DNA from: Streptomyces clavuligerus
Lineage (GTDB): Bacteria > Actinomycetota > Actinomycetes > Streptomycetales > Streptomycetaceae
Assembly: GCF_005519465.1 (NCBI RefSeq)
Contig: NZ_CP027858.1
Location: forward strand, 6,249,001 to 6,313,000
Direction: 5' to 3'
Length of the DNA stretch: 64,000 bases
The position numbers were made by a program, and so were the translations under genes. The notes beneath the pieces were generated by a model that saw only the letters and a program-made list of their open reading frames with translations, searched no databases and was not told the origin of the DNA. Below are positions 27,680 through 49,199 of the stretch, piece by piece (within the stretch, counting starts at the first letter, position 1; every line of letters starts with the position of its first letter).

Positions 27680-28400
27680 GGCTCCCGGGCGGATGGGGCC
27701 GGGCGGTGGGTCCGCAGTCGTCGGGTGACCTGGTGGTGCCAGGGGGAGGGTGTCCGTCGGGTCAGCCGTCCATGTGGGTGGCCGGTGCGGGGGGCGTGGC
27801 TCTGTACTGCGGGTCGTGAGGCCGGGGCCGGGGGTGCGGTGCTCCGCGGCCGTCCCGGGCGGACGGGGTCGGCCGGTGGGTCCGGTGGGTGCGGTGGGCT
27901 CAGCACCGGCCGGGGGTGCGCGGTCGTCGGGTGACCCGGTGGTGCCAGGGGGAGGGTGTCCGTCGGGTCACCCGTCCATGCGGGTGGCCGGTGCGGGGGG
28001 CGTGGCTCTGTACTGCGGGTCGTGAGGCCGGGGCCGGGGGTACGGCGCTCCCCGGCCGTCCCGGGCGGACGGGGTCGGCCGGTGGGTGCGGTGGGCTCAG
28101 TACCGGTCGGGGGTGCGCGGTCGTCGGGTGACCTGGTGGTGCCGGGGGAGGGTGTCCGTCGGGTCAGCCGTCCGGGCGGGTGGCCGGTGCGGGGGATGTC
28201 GCTCTGCACGTGGGTCGTGGGGCCGGGGTTTCGGGTGGGTGGTGTTCTCCGGCCGTCCCCGGTGGACGCGGCCGGGCCGGTGGGCTCAGTACCGGTCGGG
28301 GGTCCGCAGTCGCCGGGTGACCTGGCCGACGGTGGTGTGGCGGTCCCAGGGGACGATGTCCATCAGCTCAGCCGCCCACGCGGGCAGCCGGTGCGGCGGA
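27680..28400. repeat. Four tandem ~200-bp copies of the vWA gene 3' end
   Basis: The anchor cgggtgac occurs at 27722, 27928, 28125 and 28314, so periods are 206, 197 and 189 bp. The last copy (about 28260-28400) is the real 3' end of the vWA-like gene. The third reads, on the minus strand and in the gene's frame, PPHRPPARTADPTDTLPRHH then QVTRRPRTPDRY and a stop. The gene itself ends with PPHRLPAWAAELMDIV and QVTRRLRTPDRY. The second copy has a one-base insertion between the two peptides and ends VTRRPRTPGRC-stop. The first diverges after VTRRLRT. The array looks like an unequal duplication in decay. Confidence 0.82.
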
Positions 28401-29299
28401 CAGGGCACGAAGGCCGTCACCCGGCACCCCGCGCGCCCCAGCCGCCGGGTCAGCTCCGCCCACTCCTCCCGCCCGCTCCGGCGCGGATGCGCCACCGGGC
28501 CGCCGGTCCCCAGATCGCTCAGGACCAGCACCCGCGTGCCCCGCGTCGGCGGGGTGTACGGCCCCCAGGACCAGCGGCCCTCCTCGCCCACCCCCCGCAG
28601 CGGCGAGTCCTCGAAGTACCGCGCCCGGGTGTGCTCCCGGCCCACGACGGCCCGGATCTGCGCCACCAGCTCCCCCTGGTCCCGGGCGAAGGGCTCCATG
28701 CCCACCCCCAGGTCCACCAGGATCTGCGCCCCGAACCGGAGCGTGGCCACGGGCCGCAGCGGAAGCCGGGCCAGGGCGTGCCCCCGGGCCAGCCGCCGCA
28801 CGATCCGGGGGATGTCCGGCTCGCCGTCGTCCACCACCCGGGCCACCGCCGTCTGCACCATCGCCGCCGACGACCGGCGGGCCAGCAGCGGCTCGTACGG
28901 CGGCGGGGTGCCCCGGCGCACCGGCCCCGCGACGGGCAGCGCCGCCGCCCGCCACTCCCGTACGGGCAACGGCTCCACGGCCACGGGCGTCAGCAGCCGC
29001 GCCGCCGCCACCGGGGCGGCCGGGCCCGCGGCACCGGCCGCGCCGGGCCCCCCGGCGGCGTCCGCCGCCGGATCGGCCGGGGCGGGGGCGGCCGGTGCCT
29101 CCCGCACCGCCACCGTCTCCTCCTCGCGCGCAGGTGACAGGCCCGCCGGGGCGGCGTCCGGCCCCGGTTCCCGGGAGGCCCCGCCGCCCCGGGGGGCGAA
29201 ACCGAGCAGCGCGGCGATCGTCCGCCGCCGCTCCCGGTCGCCGGGAGCGGCGAGCGCGAGGGCCGTCGCCAGATCCCCGAGCCAGATGTCGCCGGCCAT
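28286..29299 (-). CDS. vWA-like protein with degenerate MIDAS, partner of MoxR
   Basis: This is the last gene of the TIR-MoxR-vWA operon (337 residues), three bases after the MoxR stop. A short N-terminal helix pair (1-35) and a long Ala/Pro linker (40-125) lead to a vWA-like fold: strand QILVDLGVGM (192-201), later RVLVLSDLG (256-264) and RVTAFVP. Real vWA domains bind Mg2+ through DxSxS; here the motif reads D196-L-G198-V-G200, so metal coordination is probably lost. A vWA protein adjacent to a MoxR ATPase is a classic pair, in which the ATPase remodels a target presented by the vWA partner. The 3' end is tandemly duplicated downstream. Confidence 0.75.
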   Translation of the reverse strand: MAGDIWLGDLATALALAAPGDRERRRTIAALLGFAPRGGGASREPGPDAAPAGLSPAREEETVAVREAPAAPAPADPAADAAGGPGAAGAAGPAAPVAAARLLTPVAVEPLPVREWRAAALPVAGPVRRGTPPPYEPLLARRSSAAMVQTAVARVVDDGEPDIPRIVRRLARGHALARLPLRPVATLRFGAQILVDLGVGMEPFARDQGELVAQIRAVVGREHTRARYFEDSPLRGVGEEGRWSWGPYTPPTRGTRVLVLSDLGTGGPVAHPRRSGREEWAELTRRLGRAGCRVTAFVPCPPHRLPAWAAELMDIVPWDRHTTVGQVTRRLRTPDRY

Positions 29300-29302
29300 C
29301 CG

Positions 29303-30340
29303 TCAGCCCCCCGGCTGCTGCGGCTTGAGCAGCGTCAGACTCTTCAGCAGCGGCCAGCGGCCGTCCGCGACGTCGATCCCCAGCGAGCGGCAGGCCCGCA
29401 GGGCGTCCAGGAACTCGGCGGTGCTCGGCGGCCGGATGGCCTGCGCCCGCGCCTCCTCGCGCGCCCGTTCGATCTCGGCGGCCAGCTCCCGCGCCAGCTC
29501 CTCGTCGGCGGCGGAGAACTCCCCGTAGTCGCTGCGGAAGTGCGCCTCCGCGATCTCCACCAGCCGTCCGGCGTCCGGCTCCGGCAGCGACGCGATCACA
29601 CAGCGGCGCAGGAACGCCTGCGGCAGCTCCCGCTCCTCGTTGGTGGTGATGATCACCAGATGCCGCAGCGGCTCCGCGTCCCCCGCGGTCTCCTGCTTGC
29701 GGACGGTCTCCCCGGTCTCGGCGACCGTGAACCGGTGCGAGCCCAGCGGGACCAGCAGGCTGTTGGGCAGATCGGGGTCGGCCTTGTCGATCTCGTCCAC
29801 GAGGACCACCGAGTGCGGACCGGTCCGCTCCGCGTTGATCTCCGCCCAGGCGTCGGGGCGCTCCGGGCGCCCCCCGCCGCCGCCGCGCGCGGACCGGGGG
29901 TCGAAGGCCCACCAGAGCGGCCCCGGGGTGACATAGCGCTGATCGTCCAGTTCGGTGCCCGCCGCCCGGACCTGGGCGTCGCTCAACCTGCGGACGTGGT
30001 CGTACGTCCACAGCAGATCGTCCGCCTGGGAACGGGAGGTGACCACGTGTTCGTAGTAGCGCCAGCCCCGCTCGCGGGCCACATAGGCGGCCAGCGAGGA
30101 CTTCCCCGAGCCGGGTTCGCCGCGCAGCAGCAGCGGACGGCCGGTCGCCAGGGCCACCTCGACGGCCAGCGCCACATCGGGCGGCATGATGTAGACCTGC
30201 CCGTCCCGGGAGTCGGGGGAGTGGAGCGGCCCCGGCAACCCCCCGTCCGTGCCGGTGCCGGTAGGGGTGCCGGTGTGCCGGTCCGGGTCCCGGGGCCCGC
30301 CCGGTTCCGGGGACCGGTCGACGGCGGCCGGTGCGTCCAT
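29303..30340 (-). CDS. MoxR-family AAA+ ATPase
   Basis: The 345-residue ATPase has Walker A GEPGSGKS (74-81), Walker B VVLVDEID (178-185), sensor-1 TTNE (232-235) and arginine-finger candidates FLRR (243-246), all intact. It lacks a membrane segment. Two ATGs are possible. The one at 30340 (MDAPAAVD) is chosen because GGAGG lies 8 bases before it, within the stop region of the TIR gene; the ATG at 30355 has no ribosome site. MoxR ATPases act as chaperones that activate or disassemble complexes. Position between a TIR gene and a vWA gene suggests it gates that effector. Confidence 0.9.
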   Translation of the reverse strand: MDAPAAVDRSPEPGGPRDPDRHTGTPTGTGTDGGLPGPLHSPDSRDGQVYIMPPDVALAVEVALATGRPLLLRGEPGSGKSSLAAYVARERGWRYYEHVVTSRSQADDLLWTYDHVRRLSDAQVRAAGTELDDQRYVTPGPLWWAFDPRSARGGGGGRPERPDAWAEINAERTGPHSVVLVDEIDKADPDLPNSLLVPLGSHRFTVAETGETVRKQETAGDAEPLRHLVIITTNEERELPQAFLRRCVIASLPEPDAGRLVEIAEAHFRSDYGEFSAADEELARELAAEIERAREEARAQAIRPPSTAEFLDALRACRSLGIDVADGRWPLLKSLTLLKPQQPGG

Positions 30341-30345
30341 TCGGT

Positions 30346-31650
30346 TTACCTCCATGAGCCGTTCAGCCGCCTGGGCAGTTCGCGCAGGTCCTCGGCGAGT
30401 TGGTAGCCGAGGATCTCTTCGTCCTCGGTGAGCTGGGGCGCCACCATGACCAGGTCGTCCAGCCGCCAGTCGCGCAGCGTACGGTCGTCCGGCACCGTCC
30501 CGCCCGTGAGCAGGATGAGCACCAGCCAGGGGAAGCGGCGGCGGACCTCTCCCACGGCCTCGGCCACCACGGCGGGCCGGAGCGCCGAGACGTCGACGCT
30601 CAGACAGTGCAGGACGTTCTCCCGGGGCCGGAACCGTTCGGGCGGCACCCCCGGAGGGTAGTGGAGCAGCGCGCGGACGGCGTCGACGCACTCCTCGACC
30701 AGCTCCCCGGCCGCGTCCTCGCCGAGCGGGAGCCCCCCGGCGGCGGCGAGGTGGTACCGGTCCAGTTGCAGACACATCGCCCGGTCCACATAGTGACCCG
30801 CCGTGCTGTGCTGACGGGCGTTGAGGACGACCGCCCGGCTCCGCCCGCAGCCGGGCGGCGGGAGTATGTGCCGCGCGGACTCCCCGTTCACCCAGACGGG
30901 CAGCAACTGCGCGACCAGCCGGTGGAGCTGATCACTGCTGAGGTACGGGGCCAGCTCCATCAGCGCGCTCTTCAGCGCCGCGCCCTCCACCGTCCCCAGC
31001 AGCCGGTGGGCGAGGAGCAGGCAGGCCCCGGAGTCCGCGCGGACATCGGCCAGCTCCGCCTCCTCGATGCCGAGGGAACGGGCCACCGCCAGCAGCGGAC
31101 GGTCGTTCCCCGTCTGCCGGAGCTGCTCCGCCAGCCGGGCGACCCAGACGCGCATGGGGTCGCCGTCGGCGGCCGGTCCCGGCTGCTCGGGGAAGCGCCC
31201 GAGCACGGACGCGGCCAGCCGCTCCGCGTACCCCCGCCGGGCGGCGCCTTCCCCGCCCTCCCCGCCGTTCTCCTCCCAGGGTTCCCGCGCGAACTCCACC
31301 GGCAGGACGTCCGAGAACCCGGCGTCCTTGAGCCGCCCCGAGGACATCTTCCCGACCAGTACGGGGATCACCCGGAAGCGCGGGTTGAGGGCCCGCCGCC
31401 ACAACAGGATGTTGACCTCGCGCCGGACCCAGAAGGATTCCAGGGCCGCCTCGTTGAAGAGGACGACCGCCGCGTCGCACTCCGCGAGCCACTGGTAGAG
31501 CGTCGCGCACCAGTCGACCCCCGGGCGGAGCGCCTCCATGTCCACCCGTACCTCGAAGTTCTTCGAGGTGAGGCCGGAGGCGACCCGCTGGAGCACCTCC
31601 AGGGTGAGCGGGTCCCGTTTCGCGCTGTGACTGATGAATACCTGGGTCAC
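30346..31650 (-). CDS. TIR-domain effector with unknown C-terminal region
   Basis: The start is the GTG at 31650 (VTQVFISHS), giving 434 residues. The N-terminal TIR domain (1-125) has the box-1 strand VFISHSAKRD, the conserved Trp/Asp loop (PGVDWCATLYQWL) and ESFWVRREVN. In that motif E78 occupies the NADase catalytic-Glu position. A Gly/Glu linker (127-138) leads to a ~295-residue region with helical repeats (LSSDQLHRLVAQLLPVWV) and ARQHSTAGHYVDRAMCLQLD, resembling parts of proteins associated with vWA-MoxR pairs. TIR enzymes deplete NAD+ or make cyclic-ADPR signals on infection; that activity is inferred. It heads the operon. Confidence 0.82.
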   Translation of the reverse strand: MTQVFISHSAKRDPLTLEVLQRVASGLTSKNFEVRVDMEALRPGVDWCATLYQWLAECDAAVVLFNEAALESFWVRREVNILLWRRALNPRFRVIPVLVGKMSSGRLKDAGFSDVLPVEFAREPWEENGGEGGEGAARRGYAERLAASVLGRFPEQPGPAADGDPMRVWVARLAEQLRQTGNDRPLLAVARSLGIEEAELADVRADSGACLLLAHRLLGTVEGAALKSALMELAPYLSSDQLHRLVAQLLPVWVNGESARHILPPPGCGRSRAVVLNARQHSTAGHYVDRAMCLQLDRYHLAAAGGLPLGEDAAGELVEECVDAVRALLHYPPGVPPERFRPRENVLHCLSVDVSALRPAVVAEAVGEVRRRFPWLVLILLTGGTVPDDRTLRDWRLDDLVMVAPQLTEDEEILGYQLAEDLRELPRRLNGSWR

Positions 31651-31901
31651 CGCGCCGCCCGGCCCCCACCGCGCCGGGCCTCCGGCGCGGGCGCCGCCGG
31701 CGGACGGGGGACGGGCCGTCGCCCGGGACCGGGTGGCGTGGTGCCGGTGTGCCGACCGTATCGGTGCTTCCCCCCGTACGTGTCCACACCGCGATTCTGG
31801 CGGACGCGCGCGGGGTTCGGCAGAGTTTCCGGGAGTTCGGCCCCTACCATTGAGCTGTCGGGGCGGCCGGAACGCACGAACGAGCAGGGAAGCAGGGGGA
31901 G
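31651..31901. promoter_or_regulatory. Divergent promoter region of the putative conflict system
   Basis: This 251-bp region lies between the TIR operon (minus) and the NACHT gene (plus). A plus-strand -10-like TACCAT is at 31845-31850, about 50 bp before the ATG at 31902, and an AGGGGGAG ribosome site immediately precedes that ATG. On the minus side the stretch 31651-31740 is extremely GC-rich. A shared control region would allow co-induction of both arms; no operator dyad was recognised. Confidence 0.4.
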
Positions 31902-34900
31902 ATGGAGCCCGCGTGGACCACGGTGGGGCTGCCGTCACCGGCGGTCGGGCCGCTGGTGGCACGGCTCTTCCTGCCCGCGGCCCCGGAGCCGGACGGCCCC
32001 GAGCCGCTGGAACGCGTTCTCGCCTTCGCCGAGGGCGGGCGCCCGATCGGCCGGGGCGCGGCGCACGCCCTGATCTCGGAGCTGTTCCGGCACTCCTCGC
32101 ACGGACGCGGCAGACGGTTCACGGCGGAGGAGCGCCAGACCATCGCGGACGCGCTCGACCAGTCGGTACGGGCGCTGCGGACGCTGGGGCTGAGCGATCT
32201 CCAGGTGGTGCGGGAGGGGCACCAGTCCCTGATGGGGCGGCTGAGCCGTACCGGCGGGGCCGGGCGGGCCGCGCTCTCGGCCAAGGGCATGCGGGTCTGG
32301 GAAGCGCTCCTGACGGCGGTCTGCGTCCATGTCGTGGACCGGCTCGCCCGGCGGTCGCCCCTGGTGGCGCGCGAGGCACGGCGGCAGGCGCGCGCCCACG
32401 CCGAGCTGATCGGACGCTCCGACGAACGGCTCCTCGCCGAGAGTGTCCGACTGGCCGACGCCGACCAGGAGTTCGAGCTGGGCCACCTCGGTGCGCTGGG
32501 CGAGCGGTACCGGACCGTCTCCGTCCTCGGCCTGGCGGACGTCTCCCCGGGCGCGGCGACCCGATGGCTGGAACACGTCCATGTCCCGCTGGCCGCCGTG
32601 ACCGGCGACGGAGGGCCGCCCCGGCCCGCGCACCGGCTGCCGGAGCGGCATCCGCGGCTGCTGCTGCGGGGCGGACCCGGCGCGGGGAAGACGGTGCTGG
32701 CCCACTGGCTCGCGGCCCGTGCGGCGGCCGACCGGGACACCGGCCGGATTCCGTTCCTCGTCCCGCTGCGGCTGCTCGGCGCGCAGGAGGCGATGCCGGA
32801 GACCGTCGAGGAGTTCCTCGCCACCGCCCCCGGCCTGCCGCTGGAGCGGCTGCACGACGGATGGATCGACCGGGTGCTCGCCGAGGGGCGGGGCCTGGTC
32901 GTCGTCGACGGGCTCGACGAGGTCCACACCGCCGTCCGCGCCGCCGTCGGGCGGCGCCTCGCCGAACTCCTCGCCGTCTACCCCGGCACCCGCTGCGTGG
33001 TCCTGACCCGGCCCCGCGCGGTACGCGACGGCTGGCTCGCCCGCCACGGCTTCACCGAGGCGACCCTGCTCCCGCTCACCCCCGACGGGGTGAGCGAACT
33101 CGTCCGGCGCTGGTGCGCCGACGACAGGGGCGACGGCGGCGGAGCCCGGGAGGACGGCGGCGGGTCCGGGACGGGTGCCGACAGCGGTGCCGGGCCCGGC
33201 GCCGCGCTGAACGGACTCCTCCGCTCCCGGCCCGGTCTCGCCGACGCGGCGACCAACCCCCTGATCTGCGCCGCGCTCTGCGCCCTGACGGCCGAACACG
33301 GCCTCCTCACCGAACACGACTGCCTCAGCGGTGTCCTGCCCATGCTCTTCGGCGGCCGGGACGGACGCCGCGGGGTGCGGCCCCCCGGCGGCGCGCCCCC
33401 CGGCCGGGACCTCTGCTACGAGGCGGCCCAGAGCGTCGCCCGCGCGACCGTCCTCGAAGGCAGCCCGGAACTCCCCACCCGTACCGTGCTGCGGCTCTTC
33501 ACGGAGCACGACGAGCACGGCGCACCGGGCGGGCAGGACCCGCCGCACGGGCGGGAGCCGTTCGGGGACCCCCGGCGGCTGCTCGCCCATCTGGTCGACC
33601 GCACGGGCGTCCTGAGCACCGGCCCCGCGGACACGGTCGCCTTCACCCACCCCGTCTTCCGGGACTTCCTCCTCGCCCGGCGGATCGCGCGCTGGAACGA
33701 CCGGGAACTCCTGGTGCGGCAGGTCGGCTCGGCCGACCTCTACCCGGTGGTCAGCCTGCTGACCGAGGGGCAGGAGAACGGGGACATCAGCTTTCTGATC
33801 GACGGGCCGGGGCACGACCGGCCGCCCCTCCCGGCCGGGGAGCCGACGGAGGGGACCGCCGGCGAACCGCGGTCCGCCCCCGCCCCGGCGGCGTCCCGCG
33901 CGGAGCCGGACACCCCGCCCACCGTTGCCCGGCCACCGGCGGCACCTCCCCCGCCCGCGCGGGCGCCCGTCCGCCCGTCCGGACCCACCCGGGGAGCCCA
34001 TGAGCTGGCCATGGCCCTCAGCGTGGCCACCCGTGTCGAACCCGAGCTGATCCGCGCCGTCCGCGTCCGCCTCTTCCCCTGGCTGGACGTGGGCGACGAG
34101 TCCGACCTCTGGTTCGGCCCCTGGACCGCGACCCGGACCCGGGCCGCCATCGCGCTCCGCCCCGACCTGCTGCCCGCCCTCCGCGCGGAACTGGCCGACC
34201 GGCTCCACCGGAGCCCCCCGGACGACCCGCTGCGCTCGCTGGGCGCGCTCGTCGCCGAGGTGCACAGCGCGCTCCCGCCCGCGCTGCGGCTGGAGGAGCG
34301 GGTCACCTGGATCGACGTCTCGGTCCGCTCCGGGCGTCAGAAGACCCTGGAGAGGGCCCTGGAGCCCGCCCTCCGCGCCCTCCTCACCGAGGGCCGCGAC
34401 GGCCTCGCCGACTGGCTCGCCGGAGCCTGGCCCCGGCTGCCCGAAGCCGTCAGGAGCACCGTGACGGCCTGGCAGCTCGCCAATCTCGCCGCCCACCGGG
34501 CACCCGACCACGGCCCCCCCGTACCCGAGCCGCCCGGCGGGCTGACCCCCGGCCATGTCGCCGTCCTCGCCGAGGCCGTCCCGCACGTCGCCCTGCCGGT
34601 CAGCCTGAGCGGTCCCCGGCTGCGGCTGGGAGCCCCGGCGGCCACGGGCGGCGCCGCGATCCTCGTCCCGGACACCGACCCCCGGGTGATCGAGATCCTG
34701 TCCCCCGGCGGCGGCCCCGCGCGGACCGTCCTGGTGGAGCGTGACGGGGAACACACCGTCGAGATCGGTACCGGCCCCGGCCCGGTGCGCCTGCGGACGC
34801 CGACGGGCGCGGTGTACGAGCTGGTGCCCGAACGGGCGCCGACCCGCCCCGCCCCGCTCCCGGAGCGGGGGACCGTCGCGGAACTGCTCGTCCTGCTGGA

Positions 34901-36518
34901 CCCGGGCACACAGCCCGGGGTGCCCCGCCGGGCGGTGGAGGAACTGCGGGCCCTGCTGGAACTGCTCGGCGACGCCGGGCTGCCGGAGGTGCAGGTGCTG
35001 CGGCAGTTCCGGCTCCCGGACACCGGCACCCGGGTGGACGCGGTCATCGCGGGGATGCGCCCCGGCGGGCGCGAGCCCTCGTACGCGGTGGTGGAACTGA
35101 GGCGATGGCGCCACGGGGAGGTCGACCGGCGGATGGAGCGGGACGCCACCGCCCGGGTGCGCCGCTCCGTCGACCACCTCACCCGGCGGCTCGCCCTGCT
35201 GCGCGACAGCCCCGAGCTGATCGACGGATTCGTCCACTGGTACCGCACCGACCCTGCCGAGCGCGCCGCGACCGGGTCCGGCAGGCTCTTCCCCGACGTC
35301 AGCCGGGACCGGGCGCTGGAACTCCTGCGGGAGCGCTTCGCCCCGCTCCCCGGCGCACCGGCGGTCGACGCCCTGCTGGACAGCGACACGGTCCCCGAGG
35401 ACCCGGCGCAGTTCGTGCTCCGGCCGGACCAGGAGGAGGGGTACGGGGCGGTCCTGCGGCGGGTGGAGCGGGCCCGGGAGGCGCACCCCCAGGAGGTGAT
35501 CATCGTGACCGGGGGGCCGGGCAGCGGCAGGAGCGCCGTCGGACTCGCCCTCCTGCGGGAGCTGCGCCGCAGGAGCGAGGAGGTGTACTACACCAACGGC
35601 TCGCCCGCGCTGGAGCATCTGCTCTCCTCGGTGGGACTCCTCGACGGGGTGCGCAAACACCCCGCCGAGCGCGCGGGCTTCGGAGGCGAAGCCGACGGCA
35701 CGGGCTTCCTGCTGTACGACGAGGCCCAGTGTCTGCGGGGGCCGTTCGCGCCCCGGCCCGTCAGCCGCTTCGACCAGCGGCTGCGCCGGGGCCAGGTCGA
35801 CCGGATGATCAGGGCCGCCCGGGTGCCGGTCTTCCTGCTGGACGAGGAGGACACGGGCCATCCCGGCGAGGTCGGCTCCTTCGTCTCGATCGCCTCCGCC
35901 GCCACCGACCAGGGCCGCACCGTCCGCGAGATCGATCTCGACGCCTTCGGCGCGGGCGCCGGGTGGGGCCATGCGCAGTGGGTGTCCCGGCTGCTCGGGC
36001 TGCGCGCGGAGCCGGTCGGCCGGTACCCGAGCGACAGCACCCCCGCGCTGCTGCTGGCGGAGAGTCCGCGCCGGCTGGAGGAGGCGGTGCGGGCCCGGAC
36101 CGCCGAGGGAGGCACCGCGCGGCTCACGGCGGGTTCGGCCTGGCCCTGGTACGCGCCGGAGTCCGAGGTCCGGATCGGCGACTGGGCGCGCCCCTGGGGG
36201 CACCGGCTGATCGACTCCGACCCCTCGGCCGCGCACCCGCTCGAACGGGTCGAACGGGTCCAGGACGTGCGCGGCTGCGCGTTCGACTGGTGCGGTGTGC
36301 TCATGGGACCCGATCTGGTATGGCGGGAGGGGCGGTGGGTCACCGACCTCGACGCCTCCCACGACCCCCGGATGCGCTCCCTGCCGCCCGAGGAGGCCGC
36401 CCGCTGTGTCGTCCGCCTCTACCGCACCCTCCTCACCCGTGGTCTGCACGGCACCGTGCTCCACTCCACCGACGAGGAGACCCGGGCCCGCCTGGCGGAG
36501 CTGATCCCCCGGGTCTGA
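31902..36518 (+). CDS. NACHT NTPase - PD-(D/E)XK-like - DUF2075 fusion protein
   Basis: The 1538-residue product has an N-terminal helical region (1-240). A NACHT STAND module follows, with Walker A GGPGAGKT (257-264), Walker B VVVDGLDE (333-340), VVLTRPRA (366-373) and a winged-helix part to ~640. After a Pro/Ala linker (640-695) comes a helical domain (TRVEPELIRAVRVRLFPWLD, 710-729, GDESDLWFGP). A nuclease-like stretch (1030-1070) has D1046 and V-E1065-L-R1067, an ELR in place of ELK. The DUF2075 module (~1170-1538) shows GGPGSGRS (1204-1211), LLYDEAQ (1270-1276), DWCGVLMGPDLVW and YRTLLTRGLHGT, the last two strongly diagnostic. Its Walker A lysine is Arg1210. It is divergent from the TIR-MoxR-vWA operon and is probably an intracellular sensor/effector. 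Confidence 0.85.
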   Translation: MEPAWTTVGLPSPAVGPLVARLFLPAAPEPDGPEPLERVLAFAEGGRPIGRGAAHALISELFRHSSHGRGRRFTAEERQTIADALDQSVRALRTLGLSDLQVVREGHQSLMGRLSRTGGAGRAALSAKGMRVWEALLTAVCVHVVDRLARRSPLVAREARRQARAHAELIGRSDERLLAESVRLADADQEFELGHLGALGERYRTVSVLGLADVSPGAATRWLEHVHVPLAAVTGDGGPPRPAHRLPERHPRLLLRGGPGAGKTVLAHWLAARAAADRDTGRIPFLVPLRLLGAQEAMPETVEEFLATAPGLPLERLHDGWIDRVLAEGRGLVVVDGLDEVHTAVRAAVGRRLAELLAVYPGTRCVVLTRPRAVRDGWLARHGFTEATLLPLTPDGVSELVRRWCADDRGDGGGAREDGGGSGTGADSGAGPGAALNGLLRSRPGLADAATNPLICAALCALTAEHGLLTEHDCLSGVLPMLFGGRDGRRGVRPPGGAPPGRDLCYEAAQSVARATVLEGSPELPTRTVLRLFTEHDEHGAPGGQDPPHGREPFGDPRRLLAHLVDRTGVLSTGPADTVAFTHPVFRDFLLARRIARWNDRELLVRQVGSADLYPVVSLLTEGQENGDISFLIDGPGHDRPPLPAGEPTEGTAGEPRSAPAPAASRAEPDTPPTVARPPAAPPPPARAPVRPSGPTRGAHELAMALSVATRVEPELIRAVRVRLFPWLDVGDESDLWFGPWTATRTRAAIALRPDLLPALRAELADRLHRSPPDDPLRSLGALVAEVHSALPPALRLEERVTWIDVSVRSGRQKTLERALEPALRALLTEGRDGLADWLAGAWPRLPEAVRSTVTAWQLANLAAHRAPDHGPPVPEPPGGLTPGHVAVLAEAVPHVALPVSLSGPRLRLGAPAATGGAAILVPDTDPRVIEILSPGGGPARTVLVERDGEHTVEIGTGPGPVRLRTPTGAVYELVPERAPTRPAPLPERGTVAELLVLLDPGTQPGVPRRAVEELRALLELLGDAGLPEVQVLRQFRLPDTGTRVDAVIAGMRPGGREPSYAVVELRRWRHGEVDRRMERDATARVRRSVDHLTRRLALLRDSPELIDGFVHWYRTDPAERAATGSGRLFPDVSRDRALELLRERFAPLPGAPAVDALLDSDTVPEDPAQFVLRPDQEEGYGAVLRRVERAREAHPQEVIIVTGGPGSGRSAVGLALLRELRRRSEEVYYTNGSPALEHLLSSVGLLDGVRKHPAERAGFGGEADGTGFLLYDEAQCLRGPFAPRPVSRFDQRLRRGQVDRMIRAARVPVFLLDEEDTGHPGEVGSFVSIASAATDQGRTVREIDLDAFGAGAGWGHAQWVSRLLGLRAEPVGRYPSDSTPALLLAESPRRLEEAVRARTAEGGTARLTAGSAWPWYAPESEVRIGDWARPWGHRLIDSDPSAAHPLERVERVQDVRGCAFDWCGVLMGPDLVWREGRWVTDLDASHDPRMRSLPPEEAARCVVRLYRTLLTRGLHGTVLHSTDEETRARLAELIPRV

Positions 36519-36528
36519 GCCGCCCCGT

Positions 36529-37611
36529 TCAGCAGATGCGCGGCAGTTGCTCCCCGATCGGCAGGTCCACCACCCGGGTCCCCCCGAACGCGGTCCGCGC
36601 CACCACCATCCCCGGATGGTCCGCGACGCACTCGCCGATGACCGCCGCCGCCGCGCCCAGCGGATGCGCGCGCATCGCGGCGAGGACCGCGTCGGTGTGC
36701 TCGCGGGGGACGAACGCAACGAGTTTGCCCTCGTTGGCGACGTAGAAGGGGTCGAGGCCGAGCACCGCGCAGGCGTTGGCGACGGGGGGCGGGACCGGGA
36801 CGGCGGACTCCTGGAGGGTGACGCCGACGCCCGCCGCCGAGGCGATCTCGTGGAGGGACGCGGCGAGGCCGCCCCGGGTGGGGTCGCGCAGGACATGGAG
36901 GTCGGGGGTGACGGCCAGCATCGCGTCCACCAGCGTGCCGAGCGCGGCGCAGTCGCTCTCGATCTCGACGCCGAACTCCAGCCCCTCCCGCACACTCATG
37001 ATCGCCACCCCGTGCAGCCCGATCTCCCCGCTGACGAGCACCGTGTCGCCGGGCCTGGCACGCTGCGGCCGGATGTCGACGCCGGGCGGGATCAGTCCGA
37101 TCCCGGCGGTGTTGAGGTAGACGCCGTCGCCGTGGCCCGCCTCCACCACCTTGGTGTCGCCGGTCACCACCTGGACGCCCGCCCGGCGGGCCGCCGTGCC
37201 CATGGCCTCGGCGACCCGGGCGACGAGGGCGGTCTCCACGCCCTCCTCCAGGATCGCGGCACAGGACAGCCACGCGGCCCGCGCCCCGCTCATCGCCAGA
37301 TCGTTGACGGTGCCGTTGACGGCCAGGTCGCCGATGCTGCCGCCGGGGAAGAAGAGGGGCCGGACCACGAACGAGTCCGTGGAGAAGGCGATCCTGGCCC
37401 CGCCGGGGTCGAGCACCGCCGAGTCGCCGAGGGCGGCGAGGACGGGCCCGTCGCCGAAGGCGGGCAGGAAGACGTTCTCGACGAGTTCGGCGGAGAGCGC
37501 CCCGCCGCCGCCGTGGCCCATCACCACCCGGGGGTGGTCCCGCAGCGGCAGCGGACACGTCCAGCCGCTCGGGTCCACCGGGCCTGCCTGGGGGAGGACG
37601 GTGTCAGCCAA
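36529..37611 (-). CDS. hypE: Hydrogenase maturation protein HypE
   Basis: The product, 360 residues, belongs to the PurM/ThiL-like carbamoyl dehydratase family and ends in the diagnostic PRIC, whose Cys carries the thiocyanate made from HypF's carbamoyl group. Core motifs include [15 protein letters not shown] and [12 protein letters not shown]. The start is set at TTG 37611 because GGAGG lies 9 bases upstream and it overlaps the hypD stop by 8 bases; an ATG start would add ~30 Pro/Arg residues. HypE supplies CN- for the Fe(CN)2CO unit of the large subunit. It is the last gene of the hyp block; its stop lies 10 bp from the convergent NACHT gene stop. Confidence 0.95.
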
Positions 37612-38785
37612 CGGGGTTCGCCTCCACAGGAGTCGGGACGGCGGACGACGGCACGGCGGAGGGTACGGGTGCCGGCGCGGGCGCACCGGGCGCGGGGGCA
37701 CCCAGCCGCCGGTAGAGGTAGTACGCGGCGCACGCCCCCTCGCTGGAGACCATGGTGGCCCCGAGCGGCGTCCGGGGGGTGCACACGGTGCCGAACGCGC
37801 CGCACTCGTTCGGCTTCAGCAGCCCCTGAAGCACTTCGCCGCTGCGGCACTCGGCGGGTTCCCGGGTGTCGATCCCCGTGACGTCGAAACGGTGCTCCGC
37901 GTCCTGGTCGCGGTAGCGGGGCGAGAGCCGCCAGCCGCTGCGCGGGATCACTCCGATGCCGCGCCAGGCGCGGTCGGTGACCTCGAAGACGTCCTCCAGC
38001 ATCGCGCGGGCCGCCGGGTTCCCCCCGGGCGGCACGGCGCGCGGATAGGCGTTGTCCACGGTGTGCTCGCCCCGTTCGAGCTGCCGCACCGTGCGGCGGA
38101 CGCCCTCCAGGATGTCCAGGGGCTCGAAGCCGGTGACCACGATCGGCACCCTATGTTTCTCGGCCAGTTCCGGGTACTCCCCGGTGCCCATCACACTGCA
38201 CACATGCCCGGCGGCGAGGAAGCCCTGCACCCGGCAGTCCGGGGACGTCATGATCGCCTCGATGGCGGGAGGCACCCGGACGTGCGAGATCAGCGTGCTG
38301 AAGTTGCGGACGCCCTGACGGCGGGCCTGATGCACGGCCATCGCGTTGGGCGGGGCGGTGGTCTCGAAACCGATGCCGAAGAACACCACCTCGCGGTCCG
38401 GGTGGTCACGGGCGATCCGCAGCGCGTCCAGCGGCGAGTACACCACCCGGACGTCCCCGCCCTCGCCGCGCACCCGGAACAGATCGCGGTCGGTGCCGGG
38501 CACCCGGAGCATGTCCCCGAAGGAACAGAAGATCACTCCGGGCCGGGAGGCGATCGCCAGCGCCTTGTCGATCACTTCGAGCGGGGTGACGCACACCGGG
38601 CACCCCGGGCCGTGGATCAGCTCCACGCCCTCCGGCAGCAGTTGGTCGATGCCATGGCGGATGATGGTGTGGGTTTGCCCGCCGCACACCTCCATCAGCG
38701 CCCAGGGGCGGGTGACCGCGGCCCTGATGTCCTCCACCAGGCCCCGGGCCAGTTCCGGGTCCTGGAACTCCGTCACATATCTCAC
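37604..38785 (-). CDS. hypD: Hydrogenase maturation protein HypD
   Basis: The 393-residue scaffold protein has the invariant motifs [17 protein letters not shown] and GFETTAP, and the Cys cluster that binds a [4Fe-4S] centre ([20 protein letters not shown]). With HypC it holds iron while CN- and CO are attached. The C-terminal ~35 residues form a Pro/Ala tail not typical of the family. The ATG (38785) overlaps the hypC stop by four bases. Confidence 0.97.
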
Positions 38786-39105
38786 CGCGCCGCCTCCCGG
38801 TCCTGTTCCTGCTCCCGCGCGCGCTCAGGGGACTCGCCGGGGGGCGCCGCCGCCTCCCAGGGGTCGCCGAACTCCTCCTGGAGAAGCCCCAGTTCGGCGA
38901 AGAGCTCCAGCGTCCGCAGGGCGGACTCCTCGTCGAGGCGCTGGAGGGCGAAGCCGACGTGGACGATGGCGTACTCGCCCACCGCCAGATCGGGCAGATA
39001 CTCCAGGCACACGTCCTTGACCACGCCGCCGAAGTCCACGACGGCCATCCGGGTGCCGTCCCGTTCCTCGATCTCCATCACTCTGCCGGGCACCGCCAGG
39101 CACAT
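38782..39105 (-). CDS. hypC: Hydrogenase maturation chaperone HypC
   Basis: The 107-residue small chaperone starts with the invariant MCLAVPGRV, whose Cys2 binds the iron precursor. The sequence [17 protein letters not shown] and [12 protein letters not shown] are typical OB-fold parts. An acidic C-terminal tail (about 80-107) extends beyond the normal ~80 residues. The start lies inside the hypF 3' end (28-bp overlap), with a ribosome site in coding sequence. Confidence 0.96.
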
Positions 39106-41576
39106 GGGTCCGCCTCCTCTCCCGTCGTGGCCCGTGCGGCCACCATGAGCTGGCCGAGGGCCAGCCCTCCGTCGTTGGGCGGCACCCGCCGGTGCCGCAG
39201 TACGGTGAAGCCGTCCGCCGCGAGCGCCCGCGTGCAGGACGACAGCAGCAGCGCGTTGCCGAAGACGCCGCCGGTCAGCGCCACCGTGTCCAGGCCGTGC
39301 CGGTCCCGGGCGAGTCCGCACAGCCGCCGCACCGCGTCGGTGACCCCGGCGTGGAAACGGGCCGCCACCAGCCCGGCGGGCGCGCCGGAGCGCAGGTCGT
39401 CGACCACGGCCGCGAGGACGGGGGCGGGCGTGGCGGTCCAGCGGCCGTCGTCCCGCTCCGTCAGCGCGAAGCGACAGCCGGGGCCGTGACCGGAGTCCGG
39501 GCCGGAGCCGGAGCCTGGGGCCGGGGGGTCGGGCGGACCGTACGCGTACGCCGCCGCCTCCAGTTCGATCGCCGCCTGGGCCTCGTACCCGGCCCGGTGG
39601 CAGACCCCGGCCAGCGAGGAGACCGCGTCGAAGAGCCGGCCCATGCTGGAGGTGGCCACACAGTTGAGCCCGGTCTCCAACTGCCGTTCGAGGACCCGGA
39701 GTTCGTCCTCCGGACAGGTCCGCACACAGGCGAGGTCGCCGGTCCAGGCGATCCCGGCGGCACGCAGATGGGACAGGGCCATGCGGTACGGGCGGACCAC
39801 CGCCGCGTCCCCGCCCGGCAGCGGCACCGGCTCCAGATGGGCGAAGCGGCGGAAGCCGCGGTAGTCGGCGATCAGCACCTCGCCGCCCCAGACGGTGCCG
39901 TCCCCGCCGTGGCCGGTGCCGTCGAAGGCGACGCCGATCACCGGCCGGGTCCCGTCCAGACCGTGTTCCGCCATCGCCGCCGCGACATGGGCGTGGTGGT
40001 GCTGGACACCGGTGACGGCGCGGCCCGCCGCCAGTCGCCGCACCCGGCGCGCGGAACGGTAGCCGGGGTGGCGGTCGGCCACGGGGGCCGCCCGTTCCAC
40101 CCCGGTCACGGCCTTCAGATGGGCCACGGCGCGGTCGAACGCCCGGAGCGTCGCCAGGTCGTCCATGTCGCCGATGTGCCCCGACAGCCAGGCCCAGCGG
40201 TCCTGCGCCAGCGCGAACACGTTCTTCAGATCGCCGCCCGCCGCGAGCAGCGGGGGCACCGGCAGCGGCAGCCGCACCGGCGCGGGCACGAAGCCCCGGG
40301 AGCGCCGCAGCGGCAGCGGCACCCCGTCCACCACGCGGACCACCGAGTCGTCGCACGGCACCCGGATCGGCCGGTCGTGCGCCAGCCAGGCGTCGACGAG
40401 CGGGGCGAGCCGTTCCAGCGCTTCGGCGTCCTCCGTGACGATGGGCTCACCGGCGAGGTTCCCACTGGTCATCACGAGCACCCGGGGTCCTTCCGGGTCG
40501 CCGTCGAGGCCCAGCAGCAGATGGTGCAACGGGGTGTACGGCAGCATCACGCCCAGATCGGGCGCGCGGGGTGCCACCAGGTCGGCCGCCGCCGGGCCGC
40601 CGCCGGGCGGCTCCGGGCGGCGGCGCAGCAGCACGATGGGCCGGGCGGGACCGGTGAGCAGCGCGCGTTCCTCGGGTCCGAGGCGGACCAGGGGCGCGAT
40701 GTCCTCGGGCGCGCGGACCATCAGCGCGAACGGCTTGTCGCCCCGGTTCTTGCGCCGCCGCAGCAGGGCGACCGTCCCCGCGTTCGCGGCGTCGCAGGCC
40801 AGGTGGTAGCCGCCGACGCCCTTCACGGCGAGGACGGCCCCGGCGGCGAGCAGCCGCCGTGCCTCGACGAGCGCGGTGTCCCCGGTGCGCCGGGGCGCGC
40901 CCGGGGCGATGAGCGTGAGCCGGGGGCCGCAGTCGTGGCAGGAGACCGGCTGGGCGTGGAAGCGCCGGTCGGCGGGGTCGGCGTACTCGCGGGCGCAGGC
41001 GCGGCACATCGGGAACCCGGCCATGGTCGTATGGGCCCGGTCGTAGGGGAGCGCGGTGACGATGGTGAAGCGCGGCCCGCAGTCGGTACAGGTGATGAAG
41101 GGGTGGCGGAAGCGCCGGTCGGCCGGGTTCCGCAGCTCGGCGAGGCACGCGGCGCAGGTCGCGGTGTCCGGCGGGATCAGGGTCCGGCCCGCGCCCCGGC
41201 CCCCGGCCCCGTCCGGGTCCCGGCCGCCGCCCCGGTCCGTTCCCCGGTCCGTTCCCCGTCCGGTTCCCGCGCGGGACGAGGGGGCGATCGCGAATCCGCG
41301 CGCCCCGGTGGCCCGGATCTCCTCCTGCCGCACGGCGGCCACATCGGCCAGCGGGGGCGCGTCGGACACGATCCGGCGGCAGAAGGCGTCGACGGCGTCC
41401 GGTGGCCCCTCGACCTCCGCGAGCACCCCGTCCCCGGTGTTCGTGACATGGCCGGAGAGTCCCAGTCCGGTGGCGAGCGCGAAGACGAAGGGCCGGAAGC
41501 CCACCCCCTGGACCAGGCCCTGGACGGCGACCCGCCGCCGCAGCGGAACGGCGGAGTCCACCGGGCGGCCGGTCAC
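39078..41576 (-). CDS. hypF: Carbamoyltransferase HypF
   Basis: The 832-residue, four-part enzyme has an acylphosphatase domain (VQGLVQGVGFRPFVFALA), two zinc-finger repeats (CAACLAEL...CTDCGPRF and CRACAREY...CHDCGPRL), a YrdC-like domain (VKGVGGYHLACDA) and a Kae1-like C-terminal domain (VQHHHAHVAAAMAEH, FDGTGHGGDGTVWGGE, TGGVFGNALLL). It makes carbamoyl-AMP from carbamoyl phosphate and ATP and loads HypE. The ~40-residue Gly/Asp/Arg linker after the acylphosphatase domain contains short GTDRGTDRG repeats. The start ATG overlaps the hypB stop by four bases. Confidence 0.97.
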   Translation of the reverse strand: MTGRPVDSAVPLRRRVAVQGLVQGVGFRPFVFALATGLGLSGHVTNTGDGVLAEVEGPPDAVDAFCRRIVSDAPPLADVAAVRQEEIRATGARGFAIAPSSRAGTGRGTDRGTDRGGGRDPDGAGGRGAGRTLIPPDTATCAACLAELRNPADRRFRHPFITCTDCGPRFTIVTALPYDRAHTTMAGFPMCRACAREYADPADRRFHAQPVSCHDCGPRLTLIAPGAPRRTGDTALVEARRLLAAGAVLAVKGVGGYHLACDAANAGTVALLRRRKNRGDKPFALMVRAPEDIAPLVRLGPEERALLTGPARPIVLLRRRPEPPGGGPAAADLVAPRAPDLGVMLPYTPLHHLLLGLDGDPEGPRVLVMTSGNLAGEPIVTEDAEALERLAPLVDAWLAHDRPIRVPCDDSVVRVVDGVPLPLRRSRGFVPAPVRLPLPVPPLLAAGGDLKNVFALAQDRWAWLSGHIGDMDDLATLRAFDRAVAHLKAVTGVERAAPVADRHPGYRSARRVRRLAAGRAVTGVQHHHAHVAAAMAEHGLDGTRPVIGVAFDGTGHGGDGTVWGGEVLIADYRGFRRFAHLEPVPLPGGDAAVVRPYRMALSHLRAAGIAWTGDLACVRTCPEDELRVLERQLETGLNCVATSSMGRLFDAVSSLAGVCHRAGYEAQAAIELEAAAYAYGPPDPPAPGSGSGPDSGHGPGCRFALTERDDGRWTATPAPVLAAVVDDLRSGAPAGLVAARFHAGVTDAVRRLCGLARDRHGLDTVALTGGVFGNALLLSSCTRALAADGFTVLRHRRVPPNDGGLALGQLMVAARATTGEEADPCAWRCPAE

Positions 41577-42478
41577 AGCGGGTCCACCACCGGGGCGCCG
41601 TGCGGATGCGGGGCACCGGCGGCGGACCCGTGGTCGTGCCGGTGGTCGTGGTCGTGCGGCGTGTGGTCGTGGGTGTGGGCGTGGTCGTGTCCGTGCGCCG
41701 GGTGGTCGTGCGTGTGGGCGTGGGCGTGCTCATGGACGGTGGGGACCCGCCCCACCGCGGAAACGGGCACGGGCGCGGGTGCGGGCTCCGGGGTGCGGGC
41801 CAGCACCGGCCGGTGCGGCACGGCGCCCTCCTGCACCGCGAGCGCCCGCTCCAGCAGGGCCCCGGTGCCCCGGCCGTCGCGCGCCGAGGTGAACACGACC
41901 TCGACCCCGGGGTTGACGCGGGCGACGTTCTCCAGGAACGCCTCCTCGTCGAAACCGACCGCCGCCGCCAGGTCCGTCTTGGTGACGAGCACCACCTGCG
42001 CGAGACCGAAGGCGGTGGGGTACTTGAGCGGCTTGTCCTCGCCCTCCGTCACCGACGCCAGCGTCACCCGCAGCGACTCGCCCAGGTCGTAGACGGCCGG
42101 GCAGACCAGATTGCCCACGTTCTCCAGGAACAGCACCCGGGTGCCGGGAGGCAGCCAGCCCGCCAGATAGCCGCGCAGCATCACGGCCTCCAGGTGGCAC
42201 AGCCCCCCGGTGAGGATCTGCTGCACCGGTACGCCCGTCCGCGCGAGCCTCCGGGCGTCGTTCTCGGTGGCCAGGTCGGCGGTGAGCGCGGCGACCGGGA
42301 CACCGCGCTCCCTGGCCGCCGCCAGCTCCCCCTCCAGGAGGGCGGTCTTCCCGCTGCCCGGACTGGAGAGGAGGTTGACGGCCACCGTGCCCCGCGCGGC
42401 CAGCTCGGAGCGCAGCAGCGCCGCGCTGTCGTCGTTGCGGGCCAGGACCGCCTGCCGGAGGTCGGACGAACGGCACAT
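41573..42478 (-). CDS. hypB: Nickel-inserting GTPase HypB with C-terminal His-rich tail
   Basis: The start ATG at 42478 (MCRSSDLRQ) gives 301 residues. The G-domain has P-loop SSPGSGKT, metal-binding Cys-His in GGLCHLEAV, LENVGNLVCPAVYDLGE and the base-recognition TKTD. These define HypB, which delivers Ni to the large subunit with HypA. The last ~50 residues hold 19 histidines, mostly alternating with Asp, Ala or Thr (HAHTHDHPAHGHDH). Nickel-storing His runs are usually N-terminal in HypB, so the C-terminal placement is unusual. The N-terminal high-affinity Cys motif of E. coli HypB is absent. Confidence 0.95.
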   Translation of the reverse strand: MCRSSDLRQAVLARNDDSAALLRSELAARGTVAVNLLSSPGSGKTALLEGELAAARERGVPVAALTADLATENDARRLARTGVPVQQILTGGLCHLEAVMLRGYLAGWLPPGTRVLFLENVGNLVCPAVYDLGESLRVTLASVTEGEDKPLKYPTAFGLAQVVLVTKTDLAAAVGFDEEAFLENVARVNPGVEVVFTSARDGRGTGALLERALAVQEGAVPHRPVLARTPEPAPAPVPVSAVGRVPTVHEHAHAHTHDHPAHGHDHAHTHDHTPHDHDHRHDHGSAAGAPHPHGAPVVDPL

Positions 42479-42567
42479 GGAACCTGTGGCCCCTTCTGAA
42501 GATCGGTCTCTGGTCTGTCCCCGGGACACCGCCGCACCGGGCCGGAACGGCCCCGTCCGCGCCCGGC

Positions 42568-42945
42568 TCAGGAGGGTGGGGCGGGGGCCGACGGGACCGT
42601 TCCGGCCCACTCGACCTCGCGGACGCGCAGCTCCCGCCCGGTCAGCAGCACGGCATCCGGGCCCCCGCAGCGCGGGCAGAGCAGATCGGGCGGCATCCCC
42701 GGACGCCACTCGACCGCGCACGGGCCGCACCGGGCCAGCGCCGCCACGCCCAGGGTCTCCAGGGCGGCCCCCTCCAGGACCGTCCCCGCGCAGGCCAGGG
42801 CGAAGCAGAACGCCAGCGCCTCCGGCACCACTCCGGCCAGCTCGCCGACCTCGAGGCGCACCGTCGCCACCGCCGTCGCGCCGTGCCGCACGGCCGCGTC
42901 CGCCACCTGCTCGACGACGGCCGCGGCGATCGACATCTCATGCAT
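42568..42945 (-). CDS. hypA: Nickel metallochaperone HypA
   Basis: The 125-residue protein begins MHEMSIAAAVVEQV; His2 is the nickel ligand of the family. The zinc loop is CGPCAVEW with CPRCGG, both CxxC pairs intact. It works with HypB. The chosen start (42945) is the ATG that gives MHE; an internal ATG three codons on would lose the nickel site. A 222-bp gap separates it from the structural hydrogenase unit and may contain a second promoter. Confidence 0.95.
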   Translation of the reverse strand: MHEMSIAAAVVEQVADAAVRHGATAVATVRLEVGELAGVVPEALAFCFALACAGTVLEGAALETLGVAALARCGPCAVEWRPGMPPDLLCPRCGGPDAVLLTGRELRVREVEWAGTVPSAPAPPS

Positions 42946-43167
42946 CGGCGCGCCTCGTTCCAAGGCCGGGGCCACGGCCGCCGGCCGCGCACGGTCCACC
43001 CGGCCGGTCCACCCGGTCCGGTCCTGGTCGCTGCCGCACGGCCCGGTGGCCGCCGTCAGCGGGTCCATTCCACGGGGCCGGGGCGGCCGGAACCGGGAGC
43101 CACGCCGCCGACCGGACGGCGGCGACCCCATTGCAGCAGCGCCGGGCGCAGCGCCGCCCCGGGAGGG

Positions 43168-43272
43168 TCACATCCGGGAGATCTCCAGATAGCGCCTGAT
43201 GTCGGGCATGGTGCGCCACAGCACCAGTCCGATCGCGCCCGCCAGGGCCGTACCCACCACTGCTTTCAGCAT
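43168..43272 (-). CDS. DUF6893-type micro-protein, single transmembrane helix
   Basis: A 34-residue frame, MLKAVVGTALAGAIGLVLW then RTMPDIRRYLEISRM, overlaps the protease stop by 7 bases. It has one membrane helix (about 3-20) and a conserved-looking basic tail (PDIRRYL). Similar tiny proteins, annotated DUF6893 from memory, recur next to Streptomyces hydrogenase genes. A role in anchoring or quinone access of the complex is conjecture. Confidence 0.72.
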   Translation of the reverse strand: MLKAVVGTALAGAIGLVLWRTMPDIRRYLEISRM

Positions 43273-43862
43273 GACGATGCCTCCGCTTTCCCAGATGTCC
43301 CGGACCTCGAATCCCCCGCCGCCTCCGCCGCCGACCCCGTTCCCGCCGTCGTCCGTGTCTCCTCGTCGAGCACCCGCAGCACCATCCGTACGGCCTCGCC
43401 GACCGCCGCCCCGACGGGGGCGCTCAGCCCCATCCCCTCCGCCGTCGACCCCGGTTCGCAGCCCACGACGAGCACCCGGTCCGGCGGGGTGCCGCCGGTG
43501 CCCGCGCTCAAGGTCGCGAGCAGGGCCAGCACCGCGTCCGGGCCCATCCGATGGCCGTCCAGCGCGGGCACGGCCGAGGGCTCGACGGGGCCGCTGCCGG
43601 CCTCGAACACCTCGATCAACTGGAGCGTCCCCGGCGGCTCGCCCCGGCTGACGGCGTCGACGAGCACCAGCGTGCGGTAACCGTCGAGCAGTTGGTACGC
43701 CAGATGCACCCCGCGCACCCCGACGTCGACCACGTCGACCCCGGCGGGGACCGGGTGCGCCCCGAGCGCGCGCACGACCTCGACCCCGAAGCCGTCGTCC
43801 CCGAGGAAGACATTGCCCACGCCCGCGACCAGCACCCGGCGTTCCATCCGGCGGTCCGTCAC
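43266..43862 (-). CDS. Hydrogenase maturation endopeptidase (HyaD/HybD type)
   Basis: A GTG at 43862 overlaps the upstream stop (GTGA), giving 198 residues; ATG 43847 would give 193. The N-terminal LVAGVGNVFLGDDGFGVEVV is the family motif in which the first acidic residue binds nickel (Asp here, Glu or Asp in relatives). A second acidic site lies in VVDVGVRG and LVLVDAVSRG. It should cleave the large-subunit tail after DPCxPCxxH once nickel is in place. A Ser/Thr-rich tail (~160-198) is unusual. Confidence 0.88.
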   Translation of the reverse strand: MTDRRMERRVLVAGVGNVFLGDDGFGVEVVRALGAHPVPAGVDVVDVGVRGVHLAYQLLDGYRTLVLVDAVSRGEPPGTLQLIEVFEAGSGPVEPSAVPALDGHRMGPDAVLALLATLSAGTGGTPPDRVLVVGCEPGSTAEGMGLSAPVGAAVGEAVRMVLRVLDEETRTTAGTGSAAEAAGDSRSGTSGKAEASSC

Positions 43863-45990: not shown

Positions 45991-46003
45991 GCCACGGCCT
46001 CCC

Positions 46004-49082: not shown

Positions 49083-49199
49083 GGTGTGTGTCGTGCCCTT
49101 CTGCGTACGGGGTGGAGGCGGCGGGAGGCGCGGGCCGCGGACCTGCGGGGGCGCGCGGTGCGGCCGGGGCGGCGCGGGGGGCGGCGGCGGGCCGCGGGG

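Follow-up and report, generated by a model that had tools for sequence, protein, structure and literature searches.

A probable TERNS3-type MoxR-vWA immune system of Streptomyces clavuligerus with a predicted NACHT-fused and divergently encoded fourth subunit

Within a stretch of 64,000 nucleotides from the 8.5-Mb genome of Streptomyces clavuligerus (contig NZ_CP027858.1; C1:6249001-6313000; hereafter the window), four genes probably encode a ternary immune system of the TERNS3 type, built around a MoxR-vWA pair, in which the fourth subunit is fused to a NACHT domain and lies divergently from the other three. One arm of the locus comprises the genes for a TIR protein, a MoxR-type AAA+ ATPase and a vWA-like co-chaperone; the other is a single gene for a giant protein which carries, from its N terminus, an NNH1 domain, a NACHT NTPase, a vWA-L-like module, a PD-(D/E)XK-like pseudonuclease and a Schlafen-type helicase domain. 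We propose that a NACHT sensor with a pseudoenzyme bait would act through a MoxR-vWA gate on a TIR output that cleaves NAD+. The architecture of the locus, its conservation, the fourth-gene module within the giant and the state of the catalytic motifs are direct observations; NACHT as the sensor and TIR as the executor, also proposed in an earlier sequence-only reading of this DNA, is the best reading of them.

The link between the giant and the MoxR-vWA machinery lies in the middle of the protein. Residues ~692-1000 match the N-terminal module of the fourth gene that usually accompanies TIR-MoxR-vWA operons: BLAST matches of the giant to ten called fourth genes cover its residues 679-1023, and in a module alignment it is 39-54% identical to 11 relatives. 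Codon-usage gene calls gave no further fourth gene beside the operon. Because it carries this module and no other fourth gene was called, the giant is, judging from its sequence, the fourth (vWA-L/effector) subunit, inverted, with NNH1-NACHT fused in front and a nuclease-helicase cassette behind. The sequence-only reading had set the giant apart as an arm of its own, a view we abandon, since the module makes it a predicted part of the MoxR-vWA machine. That reading was right to call the NACHT NTPase intact: the Walker A motif GxxGxGKT and a Walker B motif of the D-G-x-D-E type, as expected of STAND NTPases, are present in the window and Walker motifs were found in all six giants identified. 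NNH1 was undetected at E<=0.01 in the five other giants, one of which is possibly cut by a contig end.

The unit recurs in a patchy set of relatives. The TIR protein was matched at E<=1e-3 in 14 of the 199 genus genomes and at E<=2e-35 in ten (the host genome is included in both counts). The order TIR-MoxR-vWA-fourth gene is seen in gene calls for eight of nine strong relatives and, via L082, in a six-frame profile search for the ninth; both plasmid matches hold the same operon. In ten called loci (L017-L026) the fourth gene encodes 997-1489 amino acids and has a common N-terminal module. Scanning named genomes with the module alignment yielded 48 loci, 31 of them titled Streptomyces, and orientation was judged in 47 (the contig of L052 ends there). 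The fourth gene is co-directional in 43 of these, L097 being counted from a 47-residue match at a contig end, and a profile built from the single window NACHT sequence found no NACHT before the module in any of the 43. It is divergent in the other four, all of them NACHT-fronted: L051 (Streptomyces metagenome-assembled genome Bin5.20), L053 (STR69), L054 (Act143) and L055 (strain 13-12-16, in which the contig cuts the TIR gene). A further NACHT giant lies at the contig end of L052 (SID5910). The giants of L051, L053 and L054 share the window's order of NACHT, module, nuclease and helicase; that of L055 begins with a trypsin-like region and its tail looks AAA/NB-ARC-like and TPR-like, with only NACHT and AAA passing Pfam cut-offs. 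A tree of the concatenated core proteins groups the window with L051, L053 and L054 at a local support of 1.0 (the window clade; L052 and L055 are not included), and the core proteins of the three are 43-68% identical to those of the window. All three have a common gene of 146 amino acids (SRPBCC-like by eye) after the giant, which is absent from the window, so the unit has moved or its flanks have changed. Neighbourhood conservation, on which the sequence-only reading had staked its proposal, is thus borne out: the divergent pair of a TIR-MoxR-vWA operon and a NACHT giant recurs in four other loci, and the four genes form one conserved unit across relatives.

Fourth proteins were compared from the module onward with Pfam in 35 of the 48 loci (four Schlafen-type giants, five repeats of genus loci and four broken or cut genes were left out). 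The matches were to TPR_12 (18), NB-ARC (13), TIR_2 (13), NACHT (6) and CHAT (3), and the NACHT domains of these six stand behind the module, not in front of it (best E 8.6e-7). The C-terminal part is therefore variable, as Kaur et al. describe for the effectors (PMC8195603). Separately, two of the 35 vWA-L proteins, neither of them from L087 or L088, match VipA and VipB, families of the type VI secretion sheath; directly 3' of the Corallococcus system lies a gene (L088:13541-16324) for a dynamin-like GTPase that carries a TIR domain at its C-terminus; and the co-directional systems of L022-L024 are flanked by genes that by eye resemble radical-SAM and TIR-like components of FxsB/FxsC peptide systems.

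The four genes were returned identically by a codon-usage gene caller (Table 1), and their frames are open as the sequence-only reading had them, around a shared divergent gap. The minus-strand genes are separated by 5 bp (TIR-MoxR) and 3 bp (MoxR-vWA). No sigma-70-like consensus site was found on scanning positions 31600-31950. The giant is a single open frame, as had been claimed, and a misassembly is unlikely because the same order of NACHT, the 692-1000 module and nuclease/helicase recurs in four other assemblies (L051, L052, L053 and L054). A 206-bp tandem repeat (window 27699-28325; 3.2 copies, 87% matches) lies 3' of the operon, whose vWA gene it overlaps at the end.

Table 1 Features of the four-gene locus, in window coordinates
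Feature	Position	Strand	Basis
vWA-like co-chaperone gene, 337 aa; terminal gene of the TIR arm	28286..29299	-	open reading frame, family alignment
MoxR-type AAA+ ATPase gene, 345 aa	29303..30340	-	open reading frame, Pfam, alignment
TIR protein gene, 434 aa	30346..31650	-	open reading frame, Pfam
TIR domain, residues 4-126; catalytic-type Glu78 in WVRRE	31273..31641	-	
C-terminal helical and alpha/beta region of the TIR protein, residues 133-429; TERNS3-like third component	30364..31254	-	AlphaFold
Divergent gap, 251 bp, from GTG of the TIR gene to ATG of the giant	31651..31901	.	
Giant gene, 1538 aa: NNH1, NACHT, vWA-L-like module, pseudonuclease, SLFN-type helicase	31902..36518	+	
NNH1 of the giant, residues 9-177	31926..32432	+	Pfam PF22733, E 8e-15
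NACHT NTPase of the giant, residues 253-407; intact Walker A and B	32658..33122	+	Pfam, E 2.9e-18
vWA-L-like module of the giant, residues ~693-1000	33978..34901	+	homology to the N-terminus of the usual fourth gene
PD-(D/E)XK-like domain of the giant, residues ~1009-1111	34926..35234	+	motifs, structure model
Schlafen-group-3 (DUF2075) helicase domain of the giant, residues 1198-1524	35493..36473	+	Pfam PF09848, E 2.1e-37

TIR domains cleave NAD+, and the TIR protein of the window, which matches TIR_2 (E 2.2e-14) and has the TIR fold with the catalytic Glu, is a predicted NADase. Its AlphaFold model has a mean predicted local distance difference test score (pLDDT) of 91, with the helical and alpha/beta region C-terminal to the TIR domain. 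This region matched no Pfam family, and its likeness to the TERNS3 third component rests on position and fusion: the gene is the 5' gene of the operon, and the TIR fusion matches the TERNS3 layout. The MoxR protein matches AAA_5 (E 2.6e-13), and its Walker A Lys, Walker B DE and RRC arginines are invariant in all 12 sequences aligned. As in TERNS3 systems, its gene adjoins a separate vWA gene, recognised by position and family alignment. The vWA-like protein matches VWA_CoxE weakly (E 0.093), a family detected at E<=0.1 in 4 of 11 members (best 0.0054); it is 29-44% identical to 10 others and is a conserved neighbour of MoxR in the relatives, and we identify it by this conservation of position and family. 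Accordingly, the TIR effector and intact MoxR of the sequence-only reading hold up, and its vWA-like partner stands as a conserved neighbour, the Pfam match being weak.

The nature of the TIR output has to be weighed against a companion gene found in relatives. A membrane protein of the SLATT_1/DUF4231 type lies near the system in at least 13 of the 48 loci, and at least seven more have a member of another family, hydrophobic in appearance and unmatched in Pfam; both counts are lower bounds because some loci are cut, and the SLATT assignment was confirmed by Pfam for three seeds (L053, L055 and L028) and made for the others by phmmer to eight seeds. A second system in the host genome itself (L028, C1:900001-918000) encodes MoxR, vWA, a fourth protein, a TIR protein and a SLATT protein, along with an unfused NACHT-family protein (E 1e-8) whose Walker A looks degenerate by eye. 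L028 falls on another branch of the core-protein tree and is therefore a parallel system, not an ancestor; its NACHT is a separate gene, as might be expected if NACHT were a partner in function whose fusion took place in the lineage of the window. The C-terminus of the L028 fourth protein resembles an inactive alpha-amylase by eye, and Malt_amylase_C is found in 3 of the 35 relatives. The frequent SLATT companions are as suggestive of a nucleotide signal as of plain NAD+ depletion. On such a reading the TIR protein would signal to an effector encoded elsewhere, perhaps the SLATT protein at the second locus (C1:915964); an ADP-ribose-type signal was indeed predicted by Kaur et al. 2021 (PMC8195603). 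No SLATT gene was found, however, beside the window locus, L051 (a short contig) or L054, and we consider a signal in place of NAD+ depletion rather unlikely here.

The tail of the giant is a degenerate nuclease-helicase cassette. Its helicase match spans positions 2-354 of the 354-position SLFN-g3_helicase profile, that is, the whole domain; we take this family to be the former DUF2075, a label carried by several plasmid relatives, so the DUF2075 helicase-like module of the sequence-only reading is confirmed. The nuclease segment has the elements helix-strand-strand-strand-helix-strand (pLDDT 65-87 for the block and 30 for a loop, in a model that is poor overall). Asp1046 and Glu1065 are kept, Arg1067 replaces the catalytic Lys (E-x-R vs E-x-K) and the downstream Q/Y motif is lost; the PD-(D/E)XK-like segment thus survives as a fold, without the D...E-x-K set of an active nuclease. 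In the helicase, with motifs named by superfamily 1 nomenclature, the Walker A Lys is replaced by Arg1210 and motifs III, IV and V are altered, leaving Walker B and motif VI but not the motif set of an active Schlafen group 3 helicase.

We compared the window clade (four loci) with 18 free-standing relatives, which remained from the best 20 loci once L029 (the window) and L031 (the SID5910 giant) were left out; these are the best-scoring loci among the 51 of 198 genomes with a match, and more divergent copies lie outside the sample. The nuclease E-x-K Lys is Arg in 4/4 of the clade vs Lys in 18/18 free-standing proteins, the downstream Q and Y are lost in 4/4 and kept in 18/18, and the same holds for the Gln of helicase motif III; the Gln of motif IV is lost in 4/4 and kept in 17/18. 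The motif VI Arg and the nuclease Asp and Glu are kept throughout the clade. Three of its members, but not the window, lack the Walker B Glu; only the window lacks the Walker A Lys, which L051, L053 and L054 keep. As the frame stays open in divergent species, we read the tail as a retained pseudoenzyme and not as gene death. A number of genus genomes also hold a free-standing SLFN-g3 nuclease-helicase near a second, diverged copy (a frame of ~700-770 amino acids; for instance, G081:C398:1724-4884 and G088:C1:4835767-4839625), possibly as a two-gene defence unit.

That the tail is still an active effector, with the giant degrading nucleic acid after sensing and TIR only making a signal, would be compatible with the frame open over 1538 codons, the retained Asp1046 and Glu1065, and the Walker B Glu and Walker A Lys where these persist. 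REase-fold effectors (restriction endonucleases) are listed for TERNS3-type systems (PMC8195603), and the same cassette occupies the effector slot of a VMAP system comprising trypsin-VMAP, MoxR and vWA (L050:4671-12673; VMAP-C E 2.5e-38, SLFN E 1.5e-81), in which it ends the vWA protein; the L050 cassette itself, however, lacks the nuclease Asp and the motif IV Arg. With the Lys-to-Arg change and the loss of Q and Y in 4/4 window-clade loci vs none of 18 free-standing proteins, the motif III and IV Gln missing from all four and no Walker A Lys in the window protein, the nuclease and helicase of this clade are so degenerate that an active role is unlikely.

NACHT proteins oligomerise on sensing. 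In the mechanism that we favour, the NACHT giant would be the sensor: its pseudo-nuclease/pseudo-helicase tail may serve as a bait or decoy by binding nucleic acid of the invader or a phage protein that targets enzymes of this kind, whereupon NACHT would assemble using ATP. The vWA-L module would dock the giant on vWA-MoxR, and this vWA-L/vWA/MoxR chaperone could set the threshold and remodel the complex, so that the TIR-TERNS3 protein is released or clustered and cleaves NAD+; the infected cell would then be killed or arrested, or a nucleotide signal made. Parts of this scheme have precedents: the MoxR-vWA pair remodels a partner that it binds (PMC7159879), Kaur et al. 2020 proposed that inactive effectors serve as decoys (PMC7159879), and Kaur et al. 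2021, in proposing the TERNS3 class, cast TIR as the source of a signal (PMC8195603). By analogy, the system may be a counterpart of plant nucleotide-binding leucine-rich-repeat (NLR) receptors with an integrated decoy, with a NACHT receptor and a dead nuclease-helicase bait covalently plugged into MoxR-vWA and reporting to a separate TIR NADase, a comparison that we offer as tentative.

Several observations weigh against the sensor-gate-executor scheme. A literature search (most subscription journals and preprints lay outside the scope of this and the searches below) turned up comparative-genomic work on MoxR-vWA conflict systems and no functional experiment on a TERNS3 system. Compared as profiles, the giant's module, whose position fits that of vWA-L, and the vWA-L region of a VMAP system were weakly similar (P 0.0088, probability 4.6%). 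The L052 giant has an intact cassette, with every scored position kept, which also speaks for an active tail, and the L055 giant has a different tail, so members of the class can do without the cassette. The host genome is without a free-standing SLFN-g3 enzyme for the tail to mimic, which weakens a simple decoy of an own enzyme, and a search of window 20001-45000 gave no SLATT companion. Finally, TIR is not universal among the third components of the relatives' loci, and a pattern search for the TIR Glu was negative in L077, L087, L091, L096, L097 and L098; an alignment of the window protein with 35 of 40 references (L076, L080, L091, L092 and L095 left out) nevertheless places the Glu in L077, L096 and L098.

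It is very unlikely that two independent defence genes, the TIR-MoxR-vWA operon and the gene for the NACHT giant, came to lie side by side by chance: their divergent orientation would allow it, and bacterial NACHT proteins do defend against phage (PMC12169576), but the giant contains the fourth-gene module, gene calling gave the operon no other fourth gene, and the same divergent arrangement is present in four further assemblies. A NiFe-hydrogenase cluster (window 36529-50282) begins 10 bp past the giant and is convergent with it; by Pfam, it encodes the large and small subunits, a maturation protease, HypD, HypC, HypF, and CobW/HypB-type and AIR-synthase-like proteins. A cellular, non-immune MoxR-vWA chaperone, for instance for these maturation genes, is the least credible explanation, for although metalloenzymes are served by pairs of the MoxR-CoxE type (PMC7159879), the hyp genes are adjacent and the weak match of the vWA protein is to a CoxE-like family, none of 13 hydrogenase-region proteins had a BLAST match at E<=1e-8 in 60 related loci (a few of them repeats), the distribution is patchy (14/199 genus genomes), copies occur on plasmids, and TIR and NACHT are present.

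Returning to the immune system that we favour, three kinds of known proteins resemble parts of it. Bacterial NACHT (bNACHT) proteins likewise have a NACHT NTPase presumed to couple sensing to an effector; they mostly stand alone, whereas that of the window is fused to a MoxR-vWA subunit and its executor would be a separate TIR protein. The free-standing Schlafen-group-3/DUF2075 nuclease-helicases of the genus have the same domain order and, in the loci compared, are 39-42% identical to the window tail; unlike it, the 18 examined keep the nuclease Lys and Walker A Lys, and their frames of 651-763 amino acids are too short to include NACHT and vWA-L parts as well. The VMAP ternary systems share the MoxR-vWA core, and inactive effectors, sporadic NACHT modules, REases and helicases are reported among them (Kaur et al. 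2020, PMC7159879), but the third component of the window is TIR-TERNS3-like, its vWA and vWA-L are separate genes, and VMAP-C is absent from the four window proteins at E<=1 (Pfam; positive control L050, E 2.5e-38).

The closest class is TERNS3, predicted from sequence by Kaur et al. 2021 (PMC8195603) and found in multicellular lineages such as actinobacteria, which agrees with the earlier choice of MoxR-vWA systems with a third component as the right relatives. TERNS3 systems have a 5' gene for an alpha+beta third component, commonly fused to TIR, then MoxR, a separate vWA, and a protein with vWA-L and variable C-terminal modules, including the REase fold (PMC8195603). The window resembles them in gene order, TIR fusion and the MoxR-vWA pair, and has a TERNS3-like region and a vWA-L-like module at the corresponding places. 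It differs in its vWA-L-like protein, which has NNH1-NACHT joined to its front, is encoded on the other strand and closes with a degenerate nuclease and Schlafen-type helicase; the co-directional fourth gene 3' of vWA that it lacks is a feature of most relatives, not one that the authors give as defining the class. Section 6 of the published TERNS3 text (PMC8195603) describes neither a NACHT fused in front, nor a divergent layout, nor a Schlafen-type helicase. Literature searches combining NACHT, MoxR, Streptomyces and TIR led to Kaur et al. 2020 alone, and those for NACHT with DUF2075 to a single genome paper. The combination that the sequence-only reading did not recognise has a close published class. 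Hypermutation of putative sensors of MoxR-vWA conflict systems has been described (PMC10907252). The locus adds to the predicted TERNS3 kind what looks like a new variant: a compact four-gene sub-class in which the putative sensor (NACHT), gate (MoxR-vWA) and executor (TIR) can each be recognised, and whose tails differ naturally, being degenerate in the window clade, intact in L052 and different in L055. These properties make two questions testable, namely which part of a MoxR-vWA system is sensor and which executor, and whether bacteria, like plants, fuse pseudoenzyme baits to NLR-like receptors.

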